A stretch of DNA of 64,000 nt, from assembly GCF_023016005.1 (NCBI RefSeq), contig NZ_JALKAZ010000002.1, forward strand, positions 124,001-188,000, written 5' to 3'. The position numbers and the translations under genes were made by a program. The stretch's first letter is position 1; each line of letters starts with the position of its first letter. Source of the DNA: Erythrobacter sp. F6033. Lineage in GTDB: Bacteria; Pseudomonadota; Alphaproteobacteria; Sphingomonadales; Sphingomonadaceae. The notes under the pieces are model-generated. The model made no database searches. It saw only the letters and a list, made by a program, of their open reading frames with translations, and had not been told where the DNA came from. Below, one piece after another: positions 4,514-41,984 of this stretch.

Positions 4514-5015
4514 TTTGAGTTTCATGCAATCGAACAGCATATGGGCCGTGCAACGCGGTTTAAGGCACTCTCTCTCCCCGCCGAACCGGTTGCAAAGCGC
4601 AGCGCGGGATCATTGAGACCGCCCTGCCTGTCTGCTTGTTACCGGCGAGCGGCCAACCATGCGAACTGATCGGCGTAGCTGGCTTCCAGCACGCTGCACC
4701 GACCTCCCCCATCGCATGGGTTTTCAGCGCAATCCCCCAGCGCTGCGGCCGTCTACAATGGTAACGTACCAGCAGCGAGCGAGACGCGGCCGCCATTCTC
4801 TCCCCCCCCGAAACGGTGGCTGCGTCTCCACCCCGCACGAAGCAATGATCATCCAGCAATCGAATTTTCCGATCACAAGTCTCGGAAATTACCATGCGCT
4901 CGACGGTAACAAAATTACTCCTTGCTTCGTATTTGTAACTAGAACCTCGGAGCCATTCTGGCTTCGTCAGGCCCGGCAGCTAGTCAGCCTCCGGGAATTA
5001 TCAGGAGTACGGGCT
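4514..5015. other. Non-coding stretch upstream of a tiny ORF
   Basis: About 500 nt with no convincing gene. The open frames across it have arginine/cysteine-rich translations without recognisable motifs and no good ribosome sites. A C-rich tract (TCTCCCCCCCCG) lies near 4799-4810. No clear promoter hexamers or hairpin terminator were seen. Confidence 0.4.
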
Positions 5016-5099
5016 ATGAACGCTCTCGCCGAAAAGATGGTCGCAATTGTCATTGCAATCGGCCTCAGCACGGTTTCGCTCAACACGCTTATCGTGTGA
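5016..5099 (+). CDS. Possible 27-residue single-helix membrane peptide
   Basis: An ATG at 5016 opens 27 codons: MNALAEKMVAIV then IAIGLSTVSLNTLIV. An AGGAG ribosome site lies 8 nt upstream, and a strong hairpin lies 15 nt after the stop. The peptide is a short amphipathic start followed by one hydrophobic helix, as in small membrane proteins and type I toxins. A longer frame opens further upstream (4659), but its upstream part looks non-coding. No function can be assigned; the case rests on ribosome site, helix character and terminator. Confidence 0.5.
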   Translation: MNALAEKMVAIVIAIGLSTVSLNTLIV

Positions 5100-5114
5100 T
5101 CGAGCCGACAATTT

Positions 5115-5148
5115 GGAGCGGCACCCGGTTTGATCCGGATGCCGCTCC
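5115..5148 (+). terminator. Hairpin terminator after the tiny ORF
   Basis: GGAGCGGCA...CCGG pairs with CCGG...TGCCGCTCC around a short loop, followed by a T-rich TTGTTTTAT. It ends rightward transcripts just before the convergent acyl-CoA synthetase gene and could serve both strands. Confidence 0.7.
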
Positions 5149-5155
5149 AGTTGTT

Positions 5156-6703
5156 TTATCTGTCCAGTTTCTCGGCCAGATCGCGCAGATCGGTCTTCAA
5201 CAATTTGCCGATATGGCTGCGCGGCATTTCATCGATCGGATGCAATACCGATAGCCGCTGAGTCTTACCCAGCCGTGCGTTCACTTCACCGCAAATCTCA
5301 TCGCAGCTGCGCCCGCCTTCCTTGACAACAACAAAGCCGACAGGCGTTTCGCCCCATTGCCGTGACGCAATGCCGACGACAGCAGCCTCAATGACGTCAC
5401 CTTCTTGTTCGAGTTCGGCTTCCAAATCACTCGGGTAGATGTTGAACCCGCCTGAGATGATCATGTCTTTCGCGCGCCCCACCAGCTCAACAAAGCCTTG
5501 GTCATCGACGCGGCCAATATCGCCCATGCGCATCCAAACCTCGCCTGTCTCCGGATCGGTCCATTGCGCCTCTGCGGTTTTATCCGGGCGATTTTTGTAA
5601 CCGCTCATCATCGTCAAGGACCGCCCGATCAGATTGCCGGGCGTGCCCGCGGGCACCGGATTGTCATCATCATCAAGCACTTTAAGCTCGCTACCCGGAG
5701 CTGGCCTGCCGACGGTGTGCAGTTTATCCGGAAATTCATGACACGCGAGCAGGCAAACGACACCGCCTTCGGTCATCGAATAAATCTCGATCAACCCGCC
5801 CGGCATTCGGCGCAGCACCTCTGCTTTCAGCTCGGCAGAAAACGGCGCCGATGTGCAATATTTGAGCGCCATCGAAGACAGATCAAAATCATCGAATGCC
5901 GGAAAATCCATCAGCCGCTGATATTGCACCGGGACAAGCATCGTGACGGTGGCCTTGTCCGATTGCGCGTGAGCAAGCCATTTGGGAGCGTCGAACTTGC
6001 CCATAATGCGAACCGACCCGCCTGCCAGCAGCGGGGGCAAGAATGCGACCATAGTGGTGTTGGAATAGAGTGGCGTCGAGGCGAGCGAGCGCACCGGCAG
6101 GCCTGCCTCCAGATATGACAGGGCCGTTGAGCCGAATTGCCGCCAACGCATCTGGTGCGAATGCACAATGCCCTTCGGAATGCCGGTGGTACCGCTAGAA
6201 TAGATAATGTTGAAAGGATCACCCGGCTCGGGATCAAAATCTGGCGCAGTTGTTCCCGCTGGAGCCATCCACCCGTTGATCTCTTCCAGAGGCACACGGA
6301 TCAGATCGGCCATAAAGTCAGGGCCAAGCTCGTCCGCTTTTGCTTCATCGATAAACAAATGCCGGGCGCCAGAATCCTTGGCCATGCCTTCAAGCTGGTC
6401 TGGAGACGCCGAAGTCGTCAGCGGCGCGGCAACTCCGCCTGCGCGTACGGCCGCAAGAAAGACGAGTGCATAATTGACGCTTGAATAGCCGAGGATTGCG
6501 ACTGACTGCCCGCGCTTCAATCCGGTTTCGATCAGACGCGCGGCAAGGCGCTCAATCTCACAAATAAGTTCAGCCCAAGCGCACTCGCGGGCTTCATCAA
6601 CGAGAGCGATCCTATCCGGGTTCGCTACAGCCCAGTCACGCAAAATTTCATGGAATGAACCAAAGGGCTCGGTGAGTTTACCGGACATGTTGTGGTCAAT
6701 CAT
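5156..6703 (-). CDS. AMP-dependent acyl-CoA synthetase/ligase
   Basis: A class I adenylate-forming enzyme of about 515 aa. Seen: the phosphate loop YSSGTTGIPKG, the aromatic/TE motif YSMTEGG, the hinge region MGDIGRVDDQG, the AMP-binding GRAKDMIISGGFNIYPSD, and a C-terminal RSHIGKLLK with the likely catalytic Lys. It would activate a carboxylic acid to an acyl-adenylate and then the CoA thioester. The acid cannot be told from sequence; a second, separate ligase lies at 25175. The frame opens at TTG 6721; the ATGs at 6703 and 6688 are equally possible and none has a strong ribosome site. Confidence 0.85.
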   Translation of the reverse strand: MIDHNMSGKLTEPFGSFHEILRDWAVANPDRIALVDEARECAWAELICEIERLAARLIETGLKRGQSVAILGYSSVNYALVFLAAVRAGGVAAPLTTSASPDQLEGMAKDSGARHLFIDEAKADELGPDFMADLIRVPLEEINGWMAPAGTTAPDFDPEPGDPFNIIYSSGTTGIPKGIVHSHQMRWRQFGSTALSYLEAGLPVRSLASTPLYSNTTMVAFLPPLLAGGSVRIMGKFDAPKWLAHAQSDKATVTMLVPVQYQRLMDFPAFDDFDLSSMALKYCTSAPFSAELKAEVLRRMPGGLIEIYSMTEGGVVCLLACHEFPDKLHTVGRPAPGSELKVLDDDDNPVPAGTPGNLIGRSLTMMSGYKNRPDKTAEAQWTDPETGEVWMRMGDIGRVDDQGFVELVGRAKDMIISGGFNIYPSDLEAELEQEGDVIEAAVVGIASRQWGETPVGFVVVKEGGRSCDEICGEVNARLGKTQRLSVLHPIDEMPRSHIGKLLKTDLRDLAEKLDR

Positions 6704-33902: not shown

Positions 33903-36299
33903 ATGGCGAGCCGCGCTATCAACACTCGAAAAACCACCGCAGATTGGCGCGCAGGATTGCGCCGCAGCTTCCGCCGCGCAGCGCAGATGACGGGTGCCGC
34001 CGTTTTGCTGGGCAGCATGGTTTTCCTCGCTCTGTCGCTGGCCAGCTACACGCAAACAGACCCGAGCCCCTCCACTGCCGCCTCTGCTGATCAGGTCGGA
34101 AATTGGATGGGGCTGAGCGGTGCATGGTTGGCCGATCGTGTGCTGTTTATCTTCGGTCTCCCAGCGCTTCTGCTGCTGCCATTGCTGTACATCTCCGCGC
34201 GTAAGCTTTGGCGCGATGTCGAAAATGGCGATGAACCGGAAACGACCCGCTGGTGGCTGCCAGTGGGTTTGCTGCTGGTCGCGATGGCGCTGCTTTCGAC
34301 TTTTCTCTCACTGGCTTTCGATGCACCCGGCGGCACATTGCCCGCGCAAATGGGCGGTGTTTCCGGCCTTCTGGGCGGGTCCGCGGTTGAAGCAATCGCA
34401 ACCCGCTTTGGCGAAGGCGCTTCTGGCTGGATCACACTCGGCGCATTGGTCGCCTGTCTCGCGGGCGGCGTCACCCTTGTTACGCGCGTGTTCGCCATTG
34501 ATTGGCGCGCGTTATTGACGCTTCCAAAATTTGTCAGTGAAAGCACGATTGGCAATGCAATCCTCTCACGAATTCCCTTTGTCGGAGGCGGCCGTCAACC
34601 ACAGTTGACCTATGTCGACGAGGACGAGACCGAAGCTCCGGCGGCCACGGCGCGCCGAACGGCTAAGGTGGAAACGCCCGAGCGCCCCAGCCCGGCGCCG
34701 CGCCGCGCTCCCGAGATTACCGATCCTTCGGCGCCCCCGAAAAAGGCAACACCAGCAAAGCAGAACCAGAGCGACATGTTCGCGACCTACAACCTGCCAA
34801 GCCTAGAATTGCTGGCGGAGCCGCCCGAAGATCTCGGGCCAAAGCTCGACAAGCTGGCGCTGGAGCGCAATGCCCGCTTGCTCGAAAACGTGCTCGATGA
34901 TTTCAACGTAAAAGGCGAGATTACCGCTGTTCGCACTGGCCCCGTGGTCACCATGTACGAGCTCGAACCAGCGCCGGGCATCAAAGCGAGCCGCGTTGTA
35001 GGCCTTGCCGAGGATATTGCGCGCAACATGTCGGCCATTTCCGCCCGTGTTTCGCCCATTCCTGGCAAAACGGTGATGGGGATCGAACTGCCCAACACTG
35101 ATCGCCAGATGGTGATGCTCAAGGAATTGGCCGCTTGCGCGGACTTTGCCGAGAACAAGGGCAATCTGCCGATCATTCTGGGTAAGGACATTGCTGGTGA
35201 GCCGATCATCGCCGATCTCGCTGCTATGCCGCACTTGCTGGTCGCGGGGACAACCGGCTCCGGTAAGTCGGTCGGCCTCAACTGCATCCTGCTCTCGCTG
35301 CTCTATCACTTCACGCCTGCGGAATGCCGTTTGATCCTGATCGATCCGAAGGTGTTGGAGCTTAAGAGCTACGACGATATCCCGCACCTGCTCTCGCCTG
35401 TTGTTACCGAGCCGCACAAGTCGGTTCGGGCGCTCAAATGGGCGGTTGAGGAGATGGAGCGCCGTTACCGGATGATGAGCTCGGTGAATTCGCGCAATAT
35501 CAATTCATTTAACGAGAAAGTTCGGACCGCAGCCGCCAAGGGCAAACCGCTGGGTCGCCGCGTGCAGACAGGGTTCGATCCCGACACTGGCGAGCAGCTG
35601 TATGAGGAAGAACAGCTCGATTACGAACCCCTGCCCCAGATCGTTCTGATCGTCGATGAACTCGCCGATTTGATGGTCACCGTCGGCAAGGAAATCGAAG
35701 TTTTGATTCAGCGACTTAGCCAGAAATCGCGCGCTGCGGGTATCCACCTGATCATGGCGACACAGCGCCCATCGGTTGATGTCATCACTGGTGTCATCAA
35801 AGCCAACCTGCCGACCCGGATCAGCTTTAAAGTCACCAGCCGCATCGACAGCCGGACAATCCTGGGTGAGCAAGGCGCGGAACAGCTGCTCGGCAAAGGC
35901 GATATGCTGTATAAGCCGAACACAGGCGCGACCGTTCGCGTCCACGGCCCGTTCGTGAGCGACGAAGAAGTTGAAGCGGTTGCCGATTTTTGGAGGGCTC
36001 AAGGCTCTCCCGAGTACATTGAGGCGGTCACCGAAGAGCCGGCAGATGGCGGCGGGTTGAATTTCGAAGATGATTTGACCGCTTCGGACAACCCCGATGA
36101 ACGCAAATATCGTCAGGCGTGCCAGATTGTGATCGAGAACCAGAAAGCGTCCGGCTCTTGGCTCCAACGTCAAATGGGCGTTGGTTATAACACCGCTGCC
36201 AAATGGATTGAGCGGATGGAAAGCGAAGGCCTCGTCGGCCCGGCAAACCATGTCGGCCGGCGCGAAATCTTCCGCGATCAGGATGGCAATCCGCTCTAA
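33903..36299 (+). CDS. ftsK: FtsK/SpoIIIE-type DNA translocase
   Basis: A 798-aa protein. Four hydrophobic helices lie near residues 35-55, 78-98, 117-140 and 175-200; a Pro/Ala-rich linker runs to about 290; then the alpha/beta motor has Walker A GTTGSGKS at 449-456 and Walker B LIVDELADLMV. A gamma winged-helix domain (CQIVIENQKASGSWLQRQMGVGYNTAAKWIERM) recognises KOPS. It pumps DNA at the septum and activates XerCD at dif. The ATG at 33903 has an AGGAG site. The next gene lies 181 nt on. Confidence 0.95.
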   Translation: MASRAINTRKTTADWRAGLRRSFRRAAQMTGAAVLLGSMVFLALSLASYTQTDPSPSTAASADQVGNWMGLSGAWLADRVLFIFGLPALLLLPLLYISARKLWRDVENGDEPETTRWWLPVGLLLVAMALLSTFLSLAFDAPGGTLPAQMGGVSGLLGGSAVEAIATRFGEGASGWITLGALVACLAGGVTLVTRVFAIDWRALLTLPKFVSESTIGNAILSRIPFVGGGRQPQLTYVDEDETEAPAATARRTAKVETPERPSPAPRRAPEITDPSAPPKKATPAKQNQSDMFATYNLPSLELLAEPPEDLGPKLDKLALERNARLLENVLDDFNVKGEITAVRTGPVVTMYELEPAPGIKASRVVGLAEDIARNMSAISARVSPIPGKTVMGIELPNTDRQMVMLKELAACADFAENKGNLPIILGKDIAGEPIIADLAAMPHLLVAGTTGSGKSVGLNCILLSLLYHFTPAECRLILIDPKVLELKSYDDIPHLLSPVVTEPHKSVRALKWAVEEMERRYRMMSSVNSRNINSFNEKVRTAAAKGKPLGRRVQTGFDPDTGEQLYEEEQLDYEPLPQIVLIVDELADLMVTVGKEIEVLIQRLSQKSRAAGIHLIMATQRPSVDVITGVIKANLPTRISFKVTSRIDSRTILGEQGAEQLLGKGDMLYKPNTGATVRVHGPFVSDEEVEAVADFWRAQGSPEYIEAVTEEPADGGGLNFEDDLTASDNPDERKYRQACQIVIENQKASGSWLQRQMGVGYNTAAKWIERMESEGLVGPANHVGRREIFRDQDGNPL

Positions 36300-36480: not shown

Positions 36481-37416
36481 ATGACAAATCGAACCGTCTT
36501 GAATCGTCTCATTTTGGCCGCTTCGCGTGCGCTCGGCGCCCTTAGCCTGGCCGTCGTGCCGGCAACTGCAGCCGCGCAGGATGAAGAAGGATGGAAACTG
36601 GAGCCCGACGCACGGGTTGAAGTGTCCTTTGTCAGCGCAGAAAGCACCACCCGGGACGAACAATTGGTCGTCGATGGCGATGCCTTCACTGTGCGCGGGC
36701 AGGTTGGCGTCAATCTTGAAAATGATAGCACGCGGTTCCGGCTTGAAGCGGACAGAATTGAGGTCTTGCGCTTGGGCGAAGGCCGCAGCAACACCGCCCG
36801 CGACCGGTTTACCGCGCGGATTCAACACGATCTCAACGACAAATGGGAAATCGAAGCACGGGCGCGTCATTACGATGATTTTGTCACAGCTGAATCCAGC
36901 AACACCGATGAACTTCAAGGTTCCGTCGCAGTCACCTATGAGCCTGAGCGGGCGCACCGCTTCCGAGTGCGGGGAACGTGGCGCGATCGCGAATATGACA
37001 ACGGAAGCGACCAAGCGACACGAGGCGAAGGTGCGCGCATCGATGCGCAATACCGCCACCGGATGGGTCGCTACCACTATCTGACATTCGATTTGCGGGC
37101 GGAATCCATCGAATCCGATGATCCACTGCGCGGCTTTGAACGCCAATCCGCGAGTGTTTCCTACACAAAGCCGATCACACCCGATCTCCGCGTGCGACCG
37201 GCCTTACAGTTCCTGAACACACGCTTTGATGGCCGCCTGACCGACACTGGCGCACAGCGCAACGATCAGCTGATCGTGCCCGAAGTCGAAGTGCTTTGGT
37301 GGCCAGCCAATTGGCGCGTCGAAGCCGAAGCGAAGTATATTTTCTCTGACAGCAATGAGCCCGTGCGCGAGCGCGAAGGGTACCGGCTAACTCTATCGGT
37401 AGGGTATGTATTCTGA
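36481..37416 (+). CDS. Outer-membrane beta-barrel protein, first gene of the ATP-grasp operon
   Basis: A 311-aa protein with a signal peptide (ALGALSLAVVPATAAAQ) and then alternating amphipathic beta strands with aromatic and charged turns, closing with GYRLTLSVGYVF, the terminal Phe typical of barrels assembled by BAM. Probably 14-16 strands. No named family was recognised. Its last 11 nt overlap the start of the membrane-protein gene, so they are co-translated. The ATG follows a small hairpin and no ribosome site is seen; TTG 36499 is an alternative. Confidence 0.75.
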   Translation: MTNRTVLNRLILAASRALGALSLAVVPATAAAQDEEGWKLEPDARVEVSFVSAESTTRDEQLVVDGDAFTVRGQVGVNLENDSTRFRLEADRIEVLRLGEGRSNTARDRFTARIQHDLNDKWEIEARARHYDDFVTAESSNTDELQGSVAVTYEPERAHRFRVRGTWRDREYDNGSDQATRGEGARIDAQYRHRMGRYHYLTFDLRAESIESDDPLRGFERQSASVSYTKPITPDLRVRPALQFLNTRFDGRLTDTGAQRNDQLIVPEVEVLWWPANWRVEAEAKYIFSDSNEPVREREGYRLTLSVGYVF

Positions 37417-38494
37417 TCTGATCTCAAAAATCAGGCGGATACGGGATCGCGCGACCCCTCAGGTCAGGCGTCCATTCTATATCGGCCTTGGCGTGGGCCT
37501 TGCGCTCGCGGTGCTTGTGGCACTGGGTCTCTCTAATACAGAGACCTTTTTTGCTATGCCCTCGTCATTCGGCGAGCAGGCAACGTCGCAGGCTATCTGG
37601 GGTCTGAAGCCGTCCAACTTGCTGATGGTTCTACCGCTGGGCGCGTTTCTGGTCGTGCTGGCCCGCAGCTTTGTCGGGCTGAAAGCATTCGGCCTGTTCA
37701 CACCGATGCTGATCGCGCTGGCATTCCTTCAGATCGGCCCGATCATGGGCCCGGTGGTCTTGGGATCATCGGTCCTCGCCGGAATGATTATGACCCCGAC
37801 ATTGCTCAAACTGCGTATGACACGGGTTGGCTTTCTCGGGGTGCTTATCTCTTCGATTGTGCTCGTTCTTGTGGCGCTTCAAGCGATCCTCGATACCAAA
37901 CTGCAAGTGGATGCCTTCCCTGTTATTGTTTGCGCACTCGTTGTTGAACGTTGGTGGCGACAATGGGAGAAAGACGGCGCGAAAGAGGCCGCTTGGCAAG
38001 CGTTCAACACCTTCATGATCTCGGTGGTCATCCAATTCGTGATGGTCTCGCACATCGCGCTGATGCTGATCGAATGGTCGCCGCTGCTTATGCCAGCATT
38101 CACAGGTCTCGCGATTGCCATTCTCGGTCGATATCGCGGGTTGCGGCTTACCGAAATACACCGGTTTGCGCCGATCTGGCTTGAGCGGCGACGGGTCGCC
38201 AAGCGAATGGATCTACCCGAAGGGGTGGAAGAAGATCGACGCGTTGGCGCTCCAGACACAAGGCGAGTCCCGACCGAAGCGCTCGCCGAAGAAGCACCCG
38301 AAGACGTGCCGGAAAGCATACCGATCGAATTGCATGAGCGCGGGCCTCCGCAGGGCAAAGCACCCGCGAACAGCGCTCAATTCGAACCACCGCTGAAACC
38401 CAATAGCGAGGCGCAATTTGCGGCTCGCTTTGGCACATCTGCAAAGCCTCCAGTCAACAAGACGTGGGTTATAGGATCATCCGAAGATGTTTGA
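37406..38494 (+). CDS. 7-8-helix inner-membrane protein of the ATP-grasp operon
   Basis: A 362-aa protein. Hydrophobic segments: about 26-44, 74-92, 94-112, 113-130, 140-162, 165-182, 203-225 and 227-246. A charged Pro/Glu-rich cytoplasmic tail follows. SFVGLKAFGLFTPMLIALAF resembles the membrane part of a family annotated as inactive transglutaminase fused to seven helices, but no transglutaminase domain is present here. It overlaps the barrel gene before it by 11 nt and the ATP-grasp gene after it by 8 nt. Confidence 0.75.
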   Translation: MYSDLISKIRRIRDRATPQVRRPFYIGLGVGLALAVLVALGLSNTETFFAMPSSFGEQATSQAIWGLKPSNLLMVLPLGAFLVVLARSFVGLKAFGLFTPMLIALAFLQIGPIMGPVVLGSSVLAGMIMTPTLLKLRMTRVGFLGVLISSIVLVLVALQAILDTKLQVDAFPVIVCALVVERWWRQWEKDGAKEAAWQAFNTFMISVVIQFVMVSHIALMLIEWSPLLMPAFTGLAIAILGRYRGLRLTEIHRFAPIWLERRRVAKRMDLPEGVEEDRRVGAPDTRRVPTEALAEEAPEDVPESIPIELHERGPPQGKAPANSAQFEPPLKPNSEAQFAARFGTSAKPPVNKTWVIGSSEDV

Positions 38495-39431
38495 GAGCCT
38501 GAGCAAAATCTGGCGCAAGGATAGATCGCGAGCCATCGGACACGGCATGGAGCCTGTACCCTTCGGCTCGATGGAAGAGATACTTGGGATCAACATGCGC
38601 AACGCGCTGATCGCGAAATACAATCCGCGCAGCGCGATTGAACGCGCCCGCGATAAAGTTGCCGCAAAAGTCGCTTTGGAGGCAGCGGGCATTGCCTGCA
38701 CCGGCACGGTGGCCGTGATTGACGACCACCAAAAGCTGGGCGCGTTCAAACCGACGCGGGACATGCCCGATTCCTGGGCGATCAAACCCGCACGCGGTTC
38801 GCAAGGCGATGGCATTCTACTGGCTGTGCGGCGCGAAGGGGATGTGTGGTTCAAGGGTTCGGGCACGCCGCTCACCGAAACCGACGTGATGCATCACATC
38901 CAGAAGGTCGTGGATGGCGGGTTTTCCGGCGATACGGCGAGCGAGGATGCCGCCCTAATCGAGCCGCTCATTATCGCCGACCCGACCCTCGCCGATCTGG
39001 TGCCCGAAGGCCTGCCTGATCTGCGTGTCATCTGCCTGCATGATGAACCGTTGATGGCAATGCTCAGACTGCCGACAAACGCCTCGGACGGCAAAGCCAA
39101 CCTACACCAACGCGCGATTGGAGCAGGCGTCGATCTCGTAACCGGGCGCATTACCCGCGCGCTTGTGCGCGGAGAGGCGATCACGCACCACCCGGATACC
39201 GGCACCAAACTGATTGGATATCAGGTACCCGGATGGGAACGCGTGCTGGAACTTGCGAGCAAGTGCGGTCCGGCTATCGGTCTTGGCTATAGCGGGTCGG
39301 ACATTGTCCTCGATAAGAACGATGGTCCGCTCATTATCGAGGTCAACGCCCACCCTGGCATCGAAATCCAAAACATCTGCCAGCTTGGCCTAAAGGCGCA
39401 GATGGCAGCTGTTGGTGAGGATTTTAAGTAG
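38487..39431 (+). CDS. RimK-like ATP-grasp alpha-L-glutamate ligase-like protein
   Basis: A 314-aa ATP-grasp protein. Seen: Lys100 in SWAIKPARGSQGDGI and a metal-binding C-terminus EVNAHPGIEIQ with Glu285 and Asn287. YNPRSAIERARDKVAAKVALEAAGI is the family N-terminus. RimK-type enzymes join a carboxylate to an amine with ATP, for example adding glutamates to a protein or peptide end. Here the likely substrate or chain is unknown. It shares an operon with the barrel and membrane proteins, which points to envelope peptide modification. Its stop overlaps the convergent pstS by 8 nt. Confidence 0.82.
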   Translation: MFESLSKIWRKDRSRAIGHGMEPVPFGSMEEILGINMRNALIAKYNPRSAIERARDKVAAKVALEAAGIACTGTVAVIDDHQKLGAFKPTRDMPDSWAIKPARGSQGDGILLAVRREGDVWFKGSGTPLTETDVMHHIQKVVDGGFSGDTASEDAALIEPLIIADPTLADLVPEGLPDLRVICLHDEPLMAMLRLPTNASDGKANLHQRAIGAGVDLVTGRITRALVRGEAITHHPDTGTKLIGYQVPGWERVLELASKCGPAIGLGYSGSDIVLDKNDGPLIIEVNAHPGIEIQNICQLGLKAQMAAVGEDFK

Positions 39432-40512
39432 GCTCGCCGGCTTCTTCCACTTCTGCTGGGGCCGCCCCGCCCAGATCCGCAGCGGTCATCGGGATCTGCT
39501 CATTCACGCGGCGCTCGTTCATTGTTTTCTCTTCATCAGGAGAAGCAACGAGACCAATCTCAGCCAGTGGTCCATCGGCATCCCAGCTCTTGACCCACTC
39601 TTGAAGATAGAGATCAAGACCAGGGATCGCGCGCATATGCGCTTTCTTCACATAGACATAAAGCGGACGGGCACCTGGGTAAGCAAAGCTTGAGATGTTC
39701 TCATAGGTAGGATCGACACCGTTCATCGGCAGACCTTTAACCTTGTCGGCATTCTCTTCGAGATACGAGAATCCGAACACGCCGACTGAGCGAGGATTGC
39801 CTTCGATTTTCTGGACAATGAGATTGTCCTGCTCGCCCTGATCAACATAGGCGCCATCCGAACGCACTTCTGTGCAGATCGTCTGGTGGCGATCTTCATC
39901 GCTGTCTTTCAGTGCCTTCATCTCAGGATTGCTGTCACAGCCTGCTTCCAACACAAGTTCCTTCAACGCATCGCGCGTGCCCGATGTGCTCGGCGGTCCG
40001 TAAACCAGGATTGGCTCATTTGGCAGCGATGGGTCGACATCGGCCCATGTTTTTGCCGTCTGCTCATTGCCGTAAGGGTTGGCGGCCAGCGCTTCGTAAA
40101 CGATGCGCGGTGACAGGTTCAATGTGATGCCTTCTTTCGCCGAAGCAAAAGCAATACCGTCGAGACCGACTTGCAGCTCGATGATTTCTTCCACACCGTT
40201 CGCCTGACAGCGTTCAAATTCCGAAAGCTTCATCCGGCGCGATGCGTTGGCCATATCCGGTGTATCCGCGCCTGCTCCCGAACAAAACAGTTGGATACCT
40301 CCGCCTGTTCCGGTCGATTCAATCAATGGCGAATTATAGCCCGGATTGGAGCGCGCAAAGCTTTCCGCAACCTGTTTGGCAAACGGGTAAACCGTCGACG
40401 ATCCGACCGCACGGATGGAATCGCGTGAGCCACCACCGCCACCGGAACTGTCGCAGCCAGCGAGTGAAATTGAAGCGAGTAGAGCGATTGTAAGAGTCTT
40501 GGTCGATTTCAT
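39424..40512 (-). CDS. pstS: Phosphate ABC transporter substrate-binding lipoprotein
   Basis: A 362-aa lipoprotein with LAGC at Cys20, a Gly/Ser linker and then RAVGSSTVYPFAKQVA, which opens the PstS type II periplasmic binding fold. ESTGTGGGIQLFC and YGPPSTSGTRDALKEL hold phosphate-binding residues. It captures inorganic phosphate for PstCAB, which is not in the window, so it may be an extra binding protein. A PhoB box lies 49-66 nt before the start, so it should be induced by phosphate starvation. Confidence 0.9.
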   Translation of the reverse strand: MKSTKTLTIALLASISLAGCDSSGGGGGSRDSIRAVGSSTVYPFAKQVAESFARSNPGYNSPLIESTGTGGGIQLFCSGAGADTPDMANASRRMKLSEFERCQANGVEEIIELQVGLDGIAFASAKEGITLNLSPRIVYEALAANPYGNEQTAKTWADVDPSLPNEPILVYGPPSTSGTRDALKELVLEAGCDSNPEMKALKDSDEDRHQTICTEVRSDGAYVDQGEQDNLIVQKIEGNPRSVGVFGFSYLEENADKVKGLPMNGVDPTYENISSFAYPGARPLYVYVKKAHMRAIPGLDLYLQEWVKSWDADGPLAEIGLVASPDEEKTMNERRVNEQIPMTAADLGGAAPAEVEEAGEPT

Positions 40513-40560
40513 CGAATTTATCCTTTGGATTTCGTCTGATTGAGCAGATATTGTGATCGT

Positions 40561-40578
40561 ATGACGAGCTTGTGACAG
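40561..40578 (-). promoter_or_regulatory. PhoB box upstream of pstS
   Basis: On the minus strand: CTGTCAC, four bases (AAGC), then TCGTCAT. The two 7-mers match the PhoB half-site CTGTCAT at 6 of 7 and 5 of 7, with the standard 11-nt repeat spacing. It lies 49-66 nt upstream of the pstS ATG. Confidence 0.75.
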
Positions 40579-40596
40579 AAAATCGGGCGCGATCGG

Positions 40597-41949
40597 TTAG
40601 AAGTCGATCTGCGCGCGGACTGCGAAGACATCGACGCCATAATCGCGGTTGCCTGTGACAGTCGGGAAGACCGCATCCCCGTATTCAAGCCGCCCGTAAT
40701 TCGCGAGCAGCATTGTGTAATCGGTCGGCTTCCACACGAGTGAGGCGAAATAACCATCCTGAGTTCCGCCGATGACGGTGCCATCATTCAGATCAAGCCG
40801 GTCATAGCGCACATTCAATTGAAGCGAGCCCATGCCGCCTTCACCAACCGGATTGGCCGGTTTGGTGCGATCAAACTTGCCACCTTTGTAGCCGCGGGTA
40901 TCGCCCTTGGTCAGGAAATAACCGACTTCAGCATAGCCGCCGAAGAAATTGGCTGTGTCCGCAACCATCGGCATATCAAGATTTTGCCAGCGGCCTTCGA
41001 TTGCGGCGTGGAATGACCCGGCAATCACAGCGCCTTCAAGGCCAAACCCGGATTCACTTTCCGCATCCATATTGCCGGTGTTGATGAAACGCTCGCTCGT
41101 AAAGCCAACCAGAGGGCGCTGGCGATAACGAACGGTGTTTCCGTCTTCGTATGAGCGGTAATGGGCCGAGCCGCCGAAATGCAGCTGCGCATCGCCGATC
41201 TTGGGCATGTAGACGACACGCCCGTTCGCACTCCAATTCTGGTTGGAGAGTCGGTCCATATTGTCGGTAAACACACCGCCTTGGACGAGCACATCGCCTT
41301 CGCCATAGGTAACGCCTACGCCGACACGGCGGATAAAGTTAAATGCATCGGTGAACGCCGCACGCTCGATAAAGGATGTGTGCAAGCTGCTGGTCAGTTC
41401 TTCCAGACCCTGGAAATTATTGAACTGGCCGACCTGAACATCAACGTTCCCCGTTTCATAAGAGATGATCGCATCGGTGACGGTAAGATCGCTATTGGCG
41501 ACATCGACTTCGAATTTATAGCCAAAGCCGCCGGGAATATCCCCTGCCACGCCAAGGCGCGCGCGGCGAACGTCATTGCCAAAGCCGTCGTCTCTACCAG
41601 TGGAATCGGGCGCATCGACAATGCCAGCGTCATATTGCAGGCGGCCACGCGGTTTGAAGCTCCAGCCGCCTTCGCTCTTAATCTCTGGCGCCCCTTTGAA
41701 GCCGATCGAAGCATCATTGCTCGGCTCAGCTTCAGCCACGGCTTTCACTTCTGCAGCATTCGTTTCGGTCTGGGTTTTCGTTTCAGCCAGCTGGCTTTCA
41801 AGATTTTCCATCCGCTCTGCCATTTGCGCCATCTCGCCGCGCATTTTGGCGAGCTCTTGCAGAAGCGCCTCTTGCTCCTGCGCAGAAGCAGGCGCCGCAA
41901 CGGCAGCAAGCAACCCGGCTGATAACAAATATGAAACCTTACGTGTCAT
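40597..41949 (-). CDS. OprO/OprP-type phosphate-selective porin
   Basis: A 450-aa outer-membrane protein. A signal peptide is followed by a short coiled coil (about 25-65) as in OprP/OprO, then a 16-strand barrel ending in VRAQIDF. GRLQYDAGIVD and DVANSDLTVTDAIISYETG fit the Porin_O_P family. It passes phosphate or pyrophosphate through the outer membrane. ATG 41949 has a GGGA site; ATG 41961 would add four residues. It is upstream of pstS on the same strand; the 84-nt gap contains the pstS PhoB box, so each may have its own promoter. Confidence 0.88.
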   Translation of the reverse strand: MTRKVSYLLSAGLLAAVAAPASAQEQEALLQELAKMRGEMAQMAERMENLESQLAETKTQTETNAAEVKAVAEAEPSNDASIGFKGAPEIKSEGGWSFKPRGRLQYDAGIVDAPDSTGRDDGFGNDVRRARLGVAGDIPGGFGYKFEVDVANSDLTVTDAIISYETGNVDVQVGQFNNFQGLEELTSSLHTSFIERAAFTDAFNFIRRVGVGVTYGEGDVLVQGGVFTDNMDRLSNQNWSANGRVVYMPKIGDAQLHFGGSAHYRSYEDGNTVRYRQRPLVGFTSERFINTGNMDAESESGFGLEGAVIAGSFHAAIEGRWQNLDMPMVADTANFFGGYAEVGYFLTKGDTRGYKGGKFDRTKPANPVGEGGMGSLQLNVRYDRLDLNDGTVIGGTQDGYFASLVWKPTDYTMLLANYGRLEYGDAVFPTVTGNRDYGVDVFAVRAQIDF

Positions 41950-41984
41950 TTTTTGTCCCATTCTATGTTGAACGGCACGCGTTT

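Follow-up and report, generated by a model that had tools for sequence, protein, structure and literature searches.

Within a 64,000-nucleotide stretch of the Erythrobacter sp. F6033 genome (the window; contig NZ_JALKAZ010000002.1, positions 124,001–188,000), three intact open reading frames (ORFs) on the + strand formed a tightly overlapped operon. The operon encoded, in order, a predicted outer-membrane β-barrel protein, a seven-transmembrane-helix (7TM) protein of the PF14402 family and an ATP-grasp ligase, with overlaps of 11 and 8 nucleotides (nt). This layout agreed with an earlier note on the same DNA, made from the sequence alone, which had listed three overlapping rightward genes and had proposed that the ligase builds or caps a short glutamate-like chain moved by the membrane protein to the barrel. 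The host genome was 3.04 Mb in two contigs, with an estimated completeness of 100%, and PF14402 was found at one place in it. The features of the operon were as follows.

36481..37416, + strand: putative barrel gene, 311 residues, with a signal peptide, about 14 predicted strands and a C-terminal Phe
37406..37416, + strand: overlap of the barrel and 7TM genes, 11 nt, ATGTATTCTGA
37406..38494, + strand: 7TM gene, 362 residues, inner-membrane protein of the 7TM_transglut family (PF14402) without a transglutaminase domain; tail variable past about residue 260
37535..37615, + strand: loop between the first and second transmembrane helices (TM1 and TM2) of the 7TM protein, about residues 44–70, from hydropathy
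38487..38494, + strand: overlap of the 7TM and ligase genes, 8 nt, ATGTTTGA
38487..39431, + strand: ATP-grasp ligase gene, 314 residues, PF14397, TIGR02291-like under the cut-off, with K100, E285 and N287

The N-terminus of the barrel protein, read by eye, was signal-peptide-like and ended ...ATAAAQ, and the C-terminus was ...GYVF. About 14 alternating amphipathic β stretches were counted by eye in the barrel family profile. All Pfam matches of the barrel were sub-threshold, at 24 bits for OMP_b-brl (cut-off 28.7) and 20.4 bits for DUF481 (cut-off 21.1), and no above-threshold profile match to polymer-exporter families was found in Pfam or NCBIfam. Homologues at E ≤ 1e-3 numbered 359, the best 120 of which were listed. 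The idea of an Arg-lined basic pore was only partly borne out: Arg occupied 14 of the 29 invariant columns in a family of 42 sequences (hypergeometric p = 5e-7), yet the family lumen was near neutral, and its face, assigned by a leave-one-out procedure, contained 13 Arg and also 13 Asp plus Glu.

The 7TM protein matched PF14402 with 101.7 bits (cut-off 25), the sole Pfam family found. This family is described as '7 transmembrane helices usually fused to an inactive transglutaminase', and the membership of the membrane protein was a point absent from the earlier note. The protein also aligned to the 7TM part of the NCBIfam RloB model (63.7 bits; model cut-off 900). Hydropathy gave about 7–8 hydrophobic segments, consistent with the 7–8 helices read earlier, and the Pfam and NCBIfam scans likewise contained no transglutaminase domain. 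By these profiles, the membrane protein is a PF14402 member and not an unrelated transporter. PF14400, the inactive transglutaminase family, had no match in the host genome, a weak negative since no control genome matched either.

In the sequences read, a variable domain followed TM1. The TM1–TM2 slot of the relatives read held a degenerate transglutaminase, a transglutaminase with Cys, His and Asp, or a retropepsin domain, and the window loop there was about 27 residues. Residues P77, R87, G91, G96, F98, P100, A104, G115, P172, E181, G245, E250, R253 and F254 (window numbering) were invariant across 23 members aligned across types, the family invariants being those shared in a 39- and in this 23-sequence alignment. 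Similar G-x-P motifs had suggested that the 7TM protein might be homologous to PgsC/CapC, but profile comparison ruled this out (probability 3%).

The ligase matched PF14397 with 208.7 bits (cut-off 31.4) and RimK with 31.9 bits. The match to TIGR02291 (alpha-L-glutamate ligase-like) reached 262.1 bits, under the curated cut-off of 314.2. Residues K100, E285 and N287, pointed out in the earlier reading, were present and were conserved across 15 aligned sequences. With the ligase as query, a sequence search of solved structures matched only chains of RimK-type and related glutamate ligases (best 25.2 bits); the barrel and the 7TM protein had no convincing relative there. The ligase belonged, as had been recognized, among the RimK-like ligases that partner 7TM/inactive-transglutaminase proteins.

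The 7TM and ATP-grasp core has been studied as RloB/RloC in Pseudomonas aeruginosa (PMC12239564), and 'undescribed system', the wording of the earlier note, was therefore too strong. What seems new is the association with a barrel; no report of barrel-linked 7TM/ligase forms was found in the open-licence literature. In a tree of 39 ligases, in which RimK and the Nitrospiraceae locus L164 were long branches, the 15 RloC rows formed one side of a 100/99 branch and the Erythrobacter ligases were not among them. The window group was recovered at 98/99, a diverged copy joined Rubrobacter at 93/95, and L156 joined L164 at 94/91 with long branches. By this tree, the window ligase is not an RloC ortholog, and the 7TM–ligase pair belongs to the wider RloB/RloC world and not to RloABC itself. 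Descent from RloABC through loss was not supported because the tree placed the RloC rows apart from the Erythrobacter ligases.

A retropepsin gene, for which the earlier note had suggested looking nearby, was not found beside the operon. The sole PF05618 gene found in the host genome lay on the other contig, immediately ahead of RimK, and encoded a 163-residue protein of the RimB type with no signal peptide seen by eye. A secreted Rlo-type PF05618 retropepsin was not found in the host genome, where other aspartyl-protease families were not searched.

Conservation of the three-gene unit

A scan with an 11-sequence 7TM alignment, at one genome per species, returned 60 loci, of which 57 were alphaproteobacterial. 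The barrel–7TM–ligase order was present in 55 of the 57, and the same 55 were found by profile. In the two loci without a barrel, L132 and L155, the contig began part-way through the 7TM gene, and the ligase followed the 7TM gene in 57/57, some being cut at contig ends. The barrel was represented by its end only in L116 and by two pieces in L140. The alignment had been drawn from barrel-bearing loci and favours such loci; therefore, the unbiased count was taken from a PF14402 search of 114 genomes of the genus. PF14402 occurred there at 54 places in 48 genomes, with the barrel directly upstream at 51 places and the ligase downstream at all 54. The three exceptions were G605 (no barrel), G607 (barrel on another contig) and G561 (fragment). 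In a survey of the order, the barrel was present in 15/15 window-type loci, the window included. The three-gene order is not due to chance, since it was kept in 55/57 loci and at 51/54 places in the genus. The same counts established the barrel, read in first place in the earlier note, as a conserved first gene, and the absence from close relatives that the note had raised did not occur.

The barrel and PF14402 occurred together in 46 genus genomes, the barrel only in 10 and the 7TM protein only in 2 (Fisher p = 2e-19, kinship ignored). With nine Pgs-type genomes set aside post hoc, the barrel-only class dropped to 1 (p = 3e-28, kinship ignored).

A diverged cassette was present in 10 of the 57 loci, with a barrel 30–40% and a 7TM protein and ligase 39–47% identical to those of the window. 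Five assemblies, matched by contig name, carried both main and diverged cassettes (L119/L152, L120/L158, L126/L151, L127/L154 and L131/L157). The gene order was kept in 10/10 diverged loci and none of the six genes that flank the main site was seen, three of the ten having less than 0.6 kb of sequence before the barrel. Therefore, the linkage does not reflect inherited position alone.

Two further observations concerned diverged cassettes. A decaying one in L062 (6154–7946) contained a 7TM gene and a ligase in two frames, with no barrel match. The ligase ORF of the L065 cassette (4605–6443) was 612 residues long, with about 330 residues beyond the ATP-grasp domain that had no Pfam match; this length may simply reflect an extended reading frame.

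Locus types of the 7TM family and Pgs-like clusters

Searches for PF14402 were positive in 18 of 246 genomes in the order, 14 of 289 in the class, 65 of 398 in the phylum and 14 of 245 in Nitrospirota. The loci formed a modular picture, in which five types were read. Type I (Rlo) consisted of a retropepsin gene, a transglutaminase-7TM gene and a ligase gene, and type III was the barrel–7TM–ligase type of the window. Of the 54 Rlo-type loci, 32 lay beyond the class (the 30 best of the 65 matches in the phylum, and two more), 14 were alphaproteobacterial and 8 came from the Nitrospirota search. A PF05618-type gene, called by BLAST to two Pfam-confirmed members and two others, lay upstream of RloB in 54/54 Rlo-type loci readable on that side; L066 was cut. 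Two barrel profiles, from the window family and from type II, matched 0/30 Rlo-type neighbourhoods, where a barrel of another family would escape them. The same profiles matched 55/57 window-type, 10/13 type II and 9/9 Pgs-linked loci. The barrel and the retropepsin gene thus alternated between the window-type and Rlo-type loci. The window operon resembles RloABC in that a PF14402 7TM protein and an ATP-grasp ligase are encoded together and share the invariant 7TM residues, whereas it differs in that its first gene encodes a barrel, the transglutaminase domain is missing, the ligase lies outside the RloC clade and the search for a secreted PF05618 retropepsin gave none.

In type II (transglutaminase-TPR), the Cys, His and Asp of the transglutaminase-7TM protein were kept in 9/9 aligned sequences, while the Cys was kept in 0/6 aligned RloB sequences. 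The type II transglutaminase is apparently live. A TPR protein that carries a hydrophobic stretch at its N-terminus was found by similarity in 11/13 loci, and a barrel, the last gene of the set, by profile in 10/13, nine of which had trained the profile; L026, L188 and L193 ran off their contigs. No retropepsin match was found in the 13 loci. A single polypeptide combined a Cys-His-Asp transglutaminase, the 7TM region and the ATP-grasp ligase in L074 (5323–7824), L025 (1154–3160) and L026 (1851–4301); it was followed by the TPR protein in all three and by the barrel too in L074 and L025. No report of this fused arrangement or of type II was found in the open-licence literature.

The type II barrel profile matched 37/57 window-type and 6/9 Pgs-linked loci. 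The window-family profile matched 2/13 type II loci, L074 (E = 1e-8) and L025 (E = 3e-6), with no match in the other type II loci or in L164. The two barrels aligned in hhalign with a probability of 92% over 186 columns, compared with 40% over 37 columns, 2.4% and 0.25% for single-sequence barrel controls, and they look homologous. Type II shares with the window a barrel, a 7TM protein and an ATP-grasp ligase, with barrels that match by profile, but has its own transglutaminase domain, its own TPR protein and a barrel in last place.

Type IV was represented by one Nitrospiraceae locus (L164), which contained a retropepsin, a barrel, a retropepsin-domain 7TM protein and a ligase, so that both retropepsin and barrel were present. 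Type V, in Rubrobacter, consisted of a retropepsin-7TM protein and a ligase, which in L162 was followed by another aspartyl protease. The retropepsin domain stood ahead of the 7TM helices in L164 (3600–7447), L162 (5401–7982) and L163 (1488–3694), and an IDTGA/VDTGA motif was present in those of L164 and L162. No barrel was found in L162, the only Rubrobacter locus with ample flanks; L163 and L196, from one assembly, were too short. Rubrobacter is taken to be single-membraned, and the absence of a barrel from L162 counts in favour of the export reading proposed below, a point weakened by the short flanks of the other two loci.

Nine genus genomes contained a barrel homologue and no PF14402 (G602, with a partly masked 7TM gene, was set aside). 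The proposition that the barrel is exclusive to this ligase was thereby ruled out, with a homologue of about 30% identity lacking the ligase in 9/114 genomes. PgsB- and/or PgsC-like genes accompanied the barrel homologue in 7/9, and the remaining two loci, L224 and L228, reached contig edges before any Pgs gene. In L222, L223 and L229–L232, the barrel and a response-regulator gene were divergent from a Pgs-like operon encoding a sensor-like protein, a response regulator, a PgsC/CapC-type protein and three proteins of no assigned kind. A PgsB-like ligase was present in 5/6 such operons, the L232 stretch stopping before its position, and a partial PgsB-like gene adjoined the barrel in L227. The reference cluster was the following.

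L222 1601–15048: Pgs-like cluster with barrel; matching loci L223 and L229–L232

L222 (and L055, from the same genome) was analysed with profiles, whereas the other Pgs loci were read by BLAST to L222 proteins. The PgsC/CapC-type protein of L222 matched PF14102 in two stretches (138.6 bits). The Pgs-linked and window barrels were 31% identical over 305 residues (pairwise E = 1e-35), and the Pgs-linked cousin had weak matches to EpsL (22.2 bits, cut-off 275) and PelB_C (16.2 bits, cut-off 31). BLAST found no PgsB/PgsC homologue in the window or the 60 loci, and PF14102 had no match in the host genome. Window-type and Pgs-type barrels never occurred together in the 114 genus genomes (0 versus 3.7 expected, p = 0.007, kinship ignored). 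One barrel family thus goes with two unrelated pairs of a ligase and a polytopic membrane protein. The window operon is like PgsBC/CapBC in this pairing and in that its barrel family occurs in sister Erythrobacter clusters, whereas PgsB is of a different ligase family (TIGR04012) and PgsC showed no homology with the 7TM protein in the profile comparison.

Proteins of the PgsC/CapC type, about 1080 residues long, were seen in L225 (8486–11725) and L226 (7686–10937), in small genomes of family f181. The same family also holds the transglutaminase-TPR-barrel subtype.

Proposed function and alternatives

On the most likely reading, which we regard as evenly poised, the operon would serve in the envelope to synthesize an amino-acid polymer or oligomer, probably acidic, and to export it. 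The presence of the barrel family in Pgs-like clusters is the strongest reason for an amino-acid polymer. As to the substrate, the polymer, the direction of transport and the contact among the three proteins, we infer that the cytoplasmic ligase would join amino acids using ATP, with glutamate suggested by analogy. The 7TM protein, partnering the ligase, would carry the chain across the inner membrane, and the barrel would pass it through the outer membrane or hold it there. Rlo systems would keep their product in the periplasm, clipped by the secreted retropepsin, while the window variant has the barrel instead, with no envelope hydrolase found. The guess of the earlier note was partly supported and points the right way.

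In favour of this reading, RloA cut reporters with 8 or 10 glutamates and not those with 6 or fewer in vitro, and a triple RloA-protease mutant did not grow in hypo-osmotic medium unless rloB or rloC was lost (PMC12239564). RloB/RloC have been placed in a stress and antibiotic-tolerance pathway (PMC12239564).

Several observations weigh against synthesis and export of such a polymer. The predicted barrel lumen was not clearly basic, with a net charge of +0.2 for the family, +6 for the window protein and +2.5 for type II, compared with −5 for a porin represented by a single sequence. PF14397 is named 'sugar-transfer associated'. The G605 copy consisted of a 7TM gene and a ligase in two frames without a barrel, and in G151 PF14402 was reduced to a remnant of 39 positions, beside which no partner was found. 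In L222, the PgsB-like protein scored 177.8 of 222.7 bits with TIGR04012 and the PgsC-type protein 51.6 of 96.45 bits with NCBIfam, both sub-cut-off; Pfam had no match for the PgsB-like protein, and the barrel sat in a separate, divergent transcription unit with the response regulator. Furthermore, the profile probability of 3% between the 7TM protein and PgsC means that the operon is connected to polyglutamate solely by way of the barrel and the substrate of RloA.

The operon could instead be a modification system, in which the ligase and 7TM protein add amino acids to a lipid, glycan or protein of the envelope, while the barrel acts as acceptor, regulator or outer-membrane enzyme and not as a channel. 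ATP-grasp ligases also modify proteins and metabolites, and the family-wide invariant charges R87, E181, E250 and R253 of the 7TM protein and a lumen that is not strongly basic are compatible with this reading. It would also fit the cell-shape and β-lactam phenotypes of Rlo mutants (PMC12239564) and the overproduction of vesicles on disruption of an inactive-transglutaminase 7TM gene of Shewanella (PMC12096838). However, the barrel homologues in PgsB/PgsC-like clusters and the TPR and barrel pair of type II look more like export, and a modification system is considered rather unlikely. It is improbable that the barrel is an ordinary small porin for stress tolerance, which shares the operon and regulon and has no direct role in the ligase pathway. 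Stress genes under common control can be encoded in one operon, and the barrel family did occur without this ligase in the nine Pgs-type genomes; against this stand the tight overlap, the retention of all three genes in the diverged copies and the co-occurrence of the barrel with PF14402. In the genus census, moreover, the barrel was outside the ligase and Pgs contexts only at contig ends or on split contigs. A reduced RloABC, which would have lost the protease and the transglutaminase domain and kept the same periplasmic osmotic job with the barrel as a safety valve, is very improbable. The 7TM invariant residues are as in RloB and the barrel occupies the first place of RloA, but the RloC rows split off in the ligase tree and one diverged set grouped with Rubrobacter; the job could still match.

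The reading of the operon as a polymer exporter could be extended, tentatively, to a single outer-membrane barrel family that would serve as the exit for amino-acid polymers in Gram-negatives, shared by two unrelated synthases, PgsB/PgsC and a synthase-translocase of a RimK-like ligase and 7TM_transglut. RloB/RloC would be the periplasm-only form, and retropepsin and transglutaminase domains would be interchangeable trimming modules, either inserted between TM1 and TM2 or encoded next to the operon. The TPR/barrel polymer exporters AlgK/AlgE, PelB and BcsC resemble the proposed window system in that an operon for polymer synthesis has a barrel of its own. An outer-membrane exit reserved for amino-acid polymers, if confirmed, would to our knowledge be a new class of component. 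A barrel in the place of the protease, together with a barrel family beside poly-γ-glutamate genes, gives a testable guess at the Rlo product, namely an exported amino-acid chain, and Erythrobacter is a marine genus, not known to be pathogenic, in which that guess can be tested.

Genomic surroundings

A promoter and terminator scan of the locus gave no signal exceeding that of shuffled sequences. The genes adjoining the operon, named by sequence reading, were as follows.

33903..36299, + strand: FtsK-like DNA translocase, upstream; adjoins the main cassette in many relatives
39424..40512, − strand: PstS-like phosphate-binding protein, downstream

The FtsK/PstS site was kept in many relatives, and these neighbours were not seen at L112, L123, L133, L136 and L148. 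The rimB–rimK genes lay directly upstream of the barrel in L138, L139, L144 and L145 (three Aurantiacibacter and one Erythrobacter) and about 3 kb upstream in L147. The RimK/RimB system of ribosomal protein S6 is like the operon in its RimK-like ATP-grasp ligase and in this proximity, whereas RimBK is cytosolic and the host has its own separate RimBK. On the opposite strand of the window, PstS-like and OprP-like porin genes (39424–41961; names from sequence reading) adjoined the operon. PstS was near the cassette in many relatives and the OprP-like porin in two.

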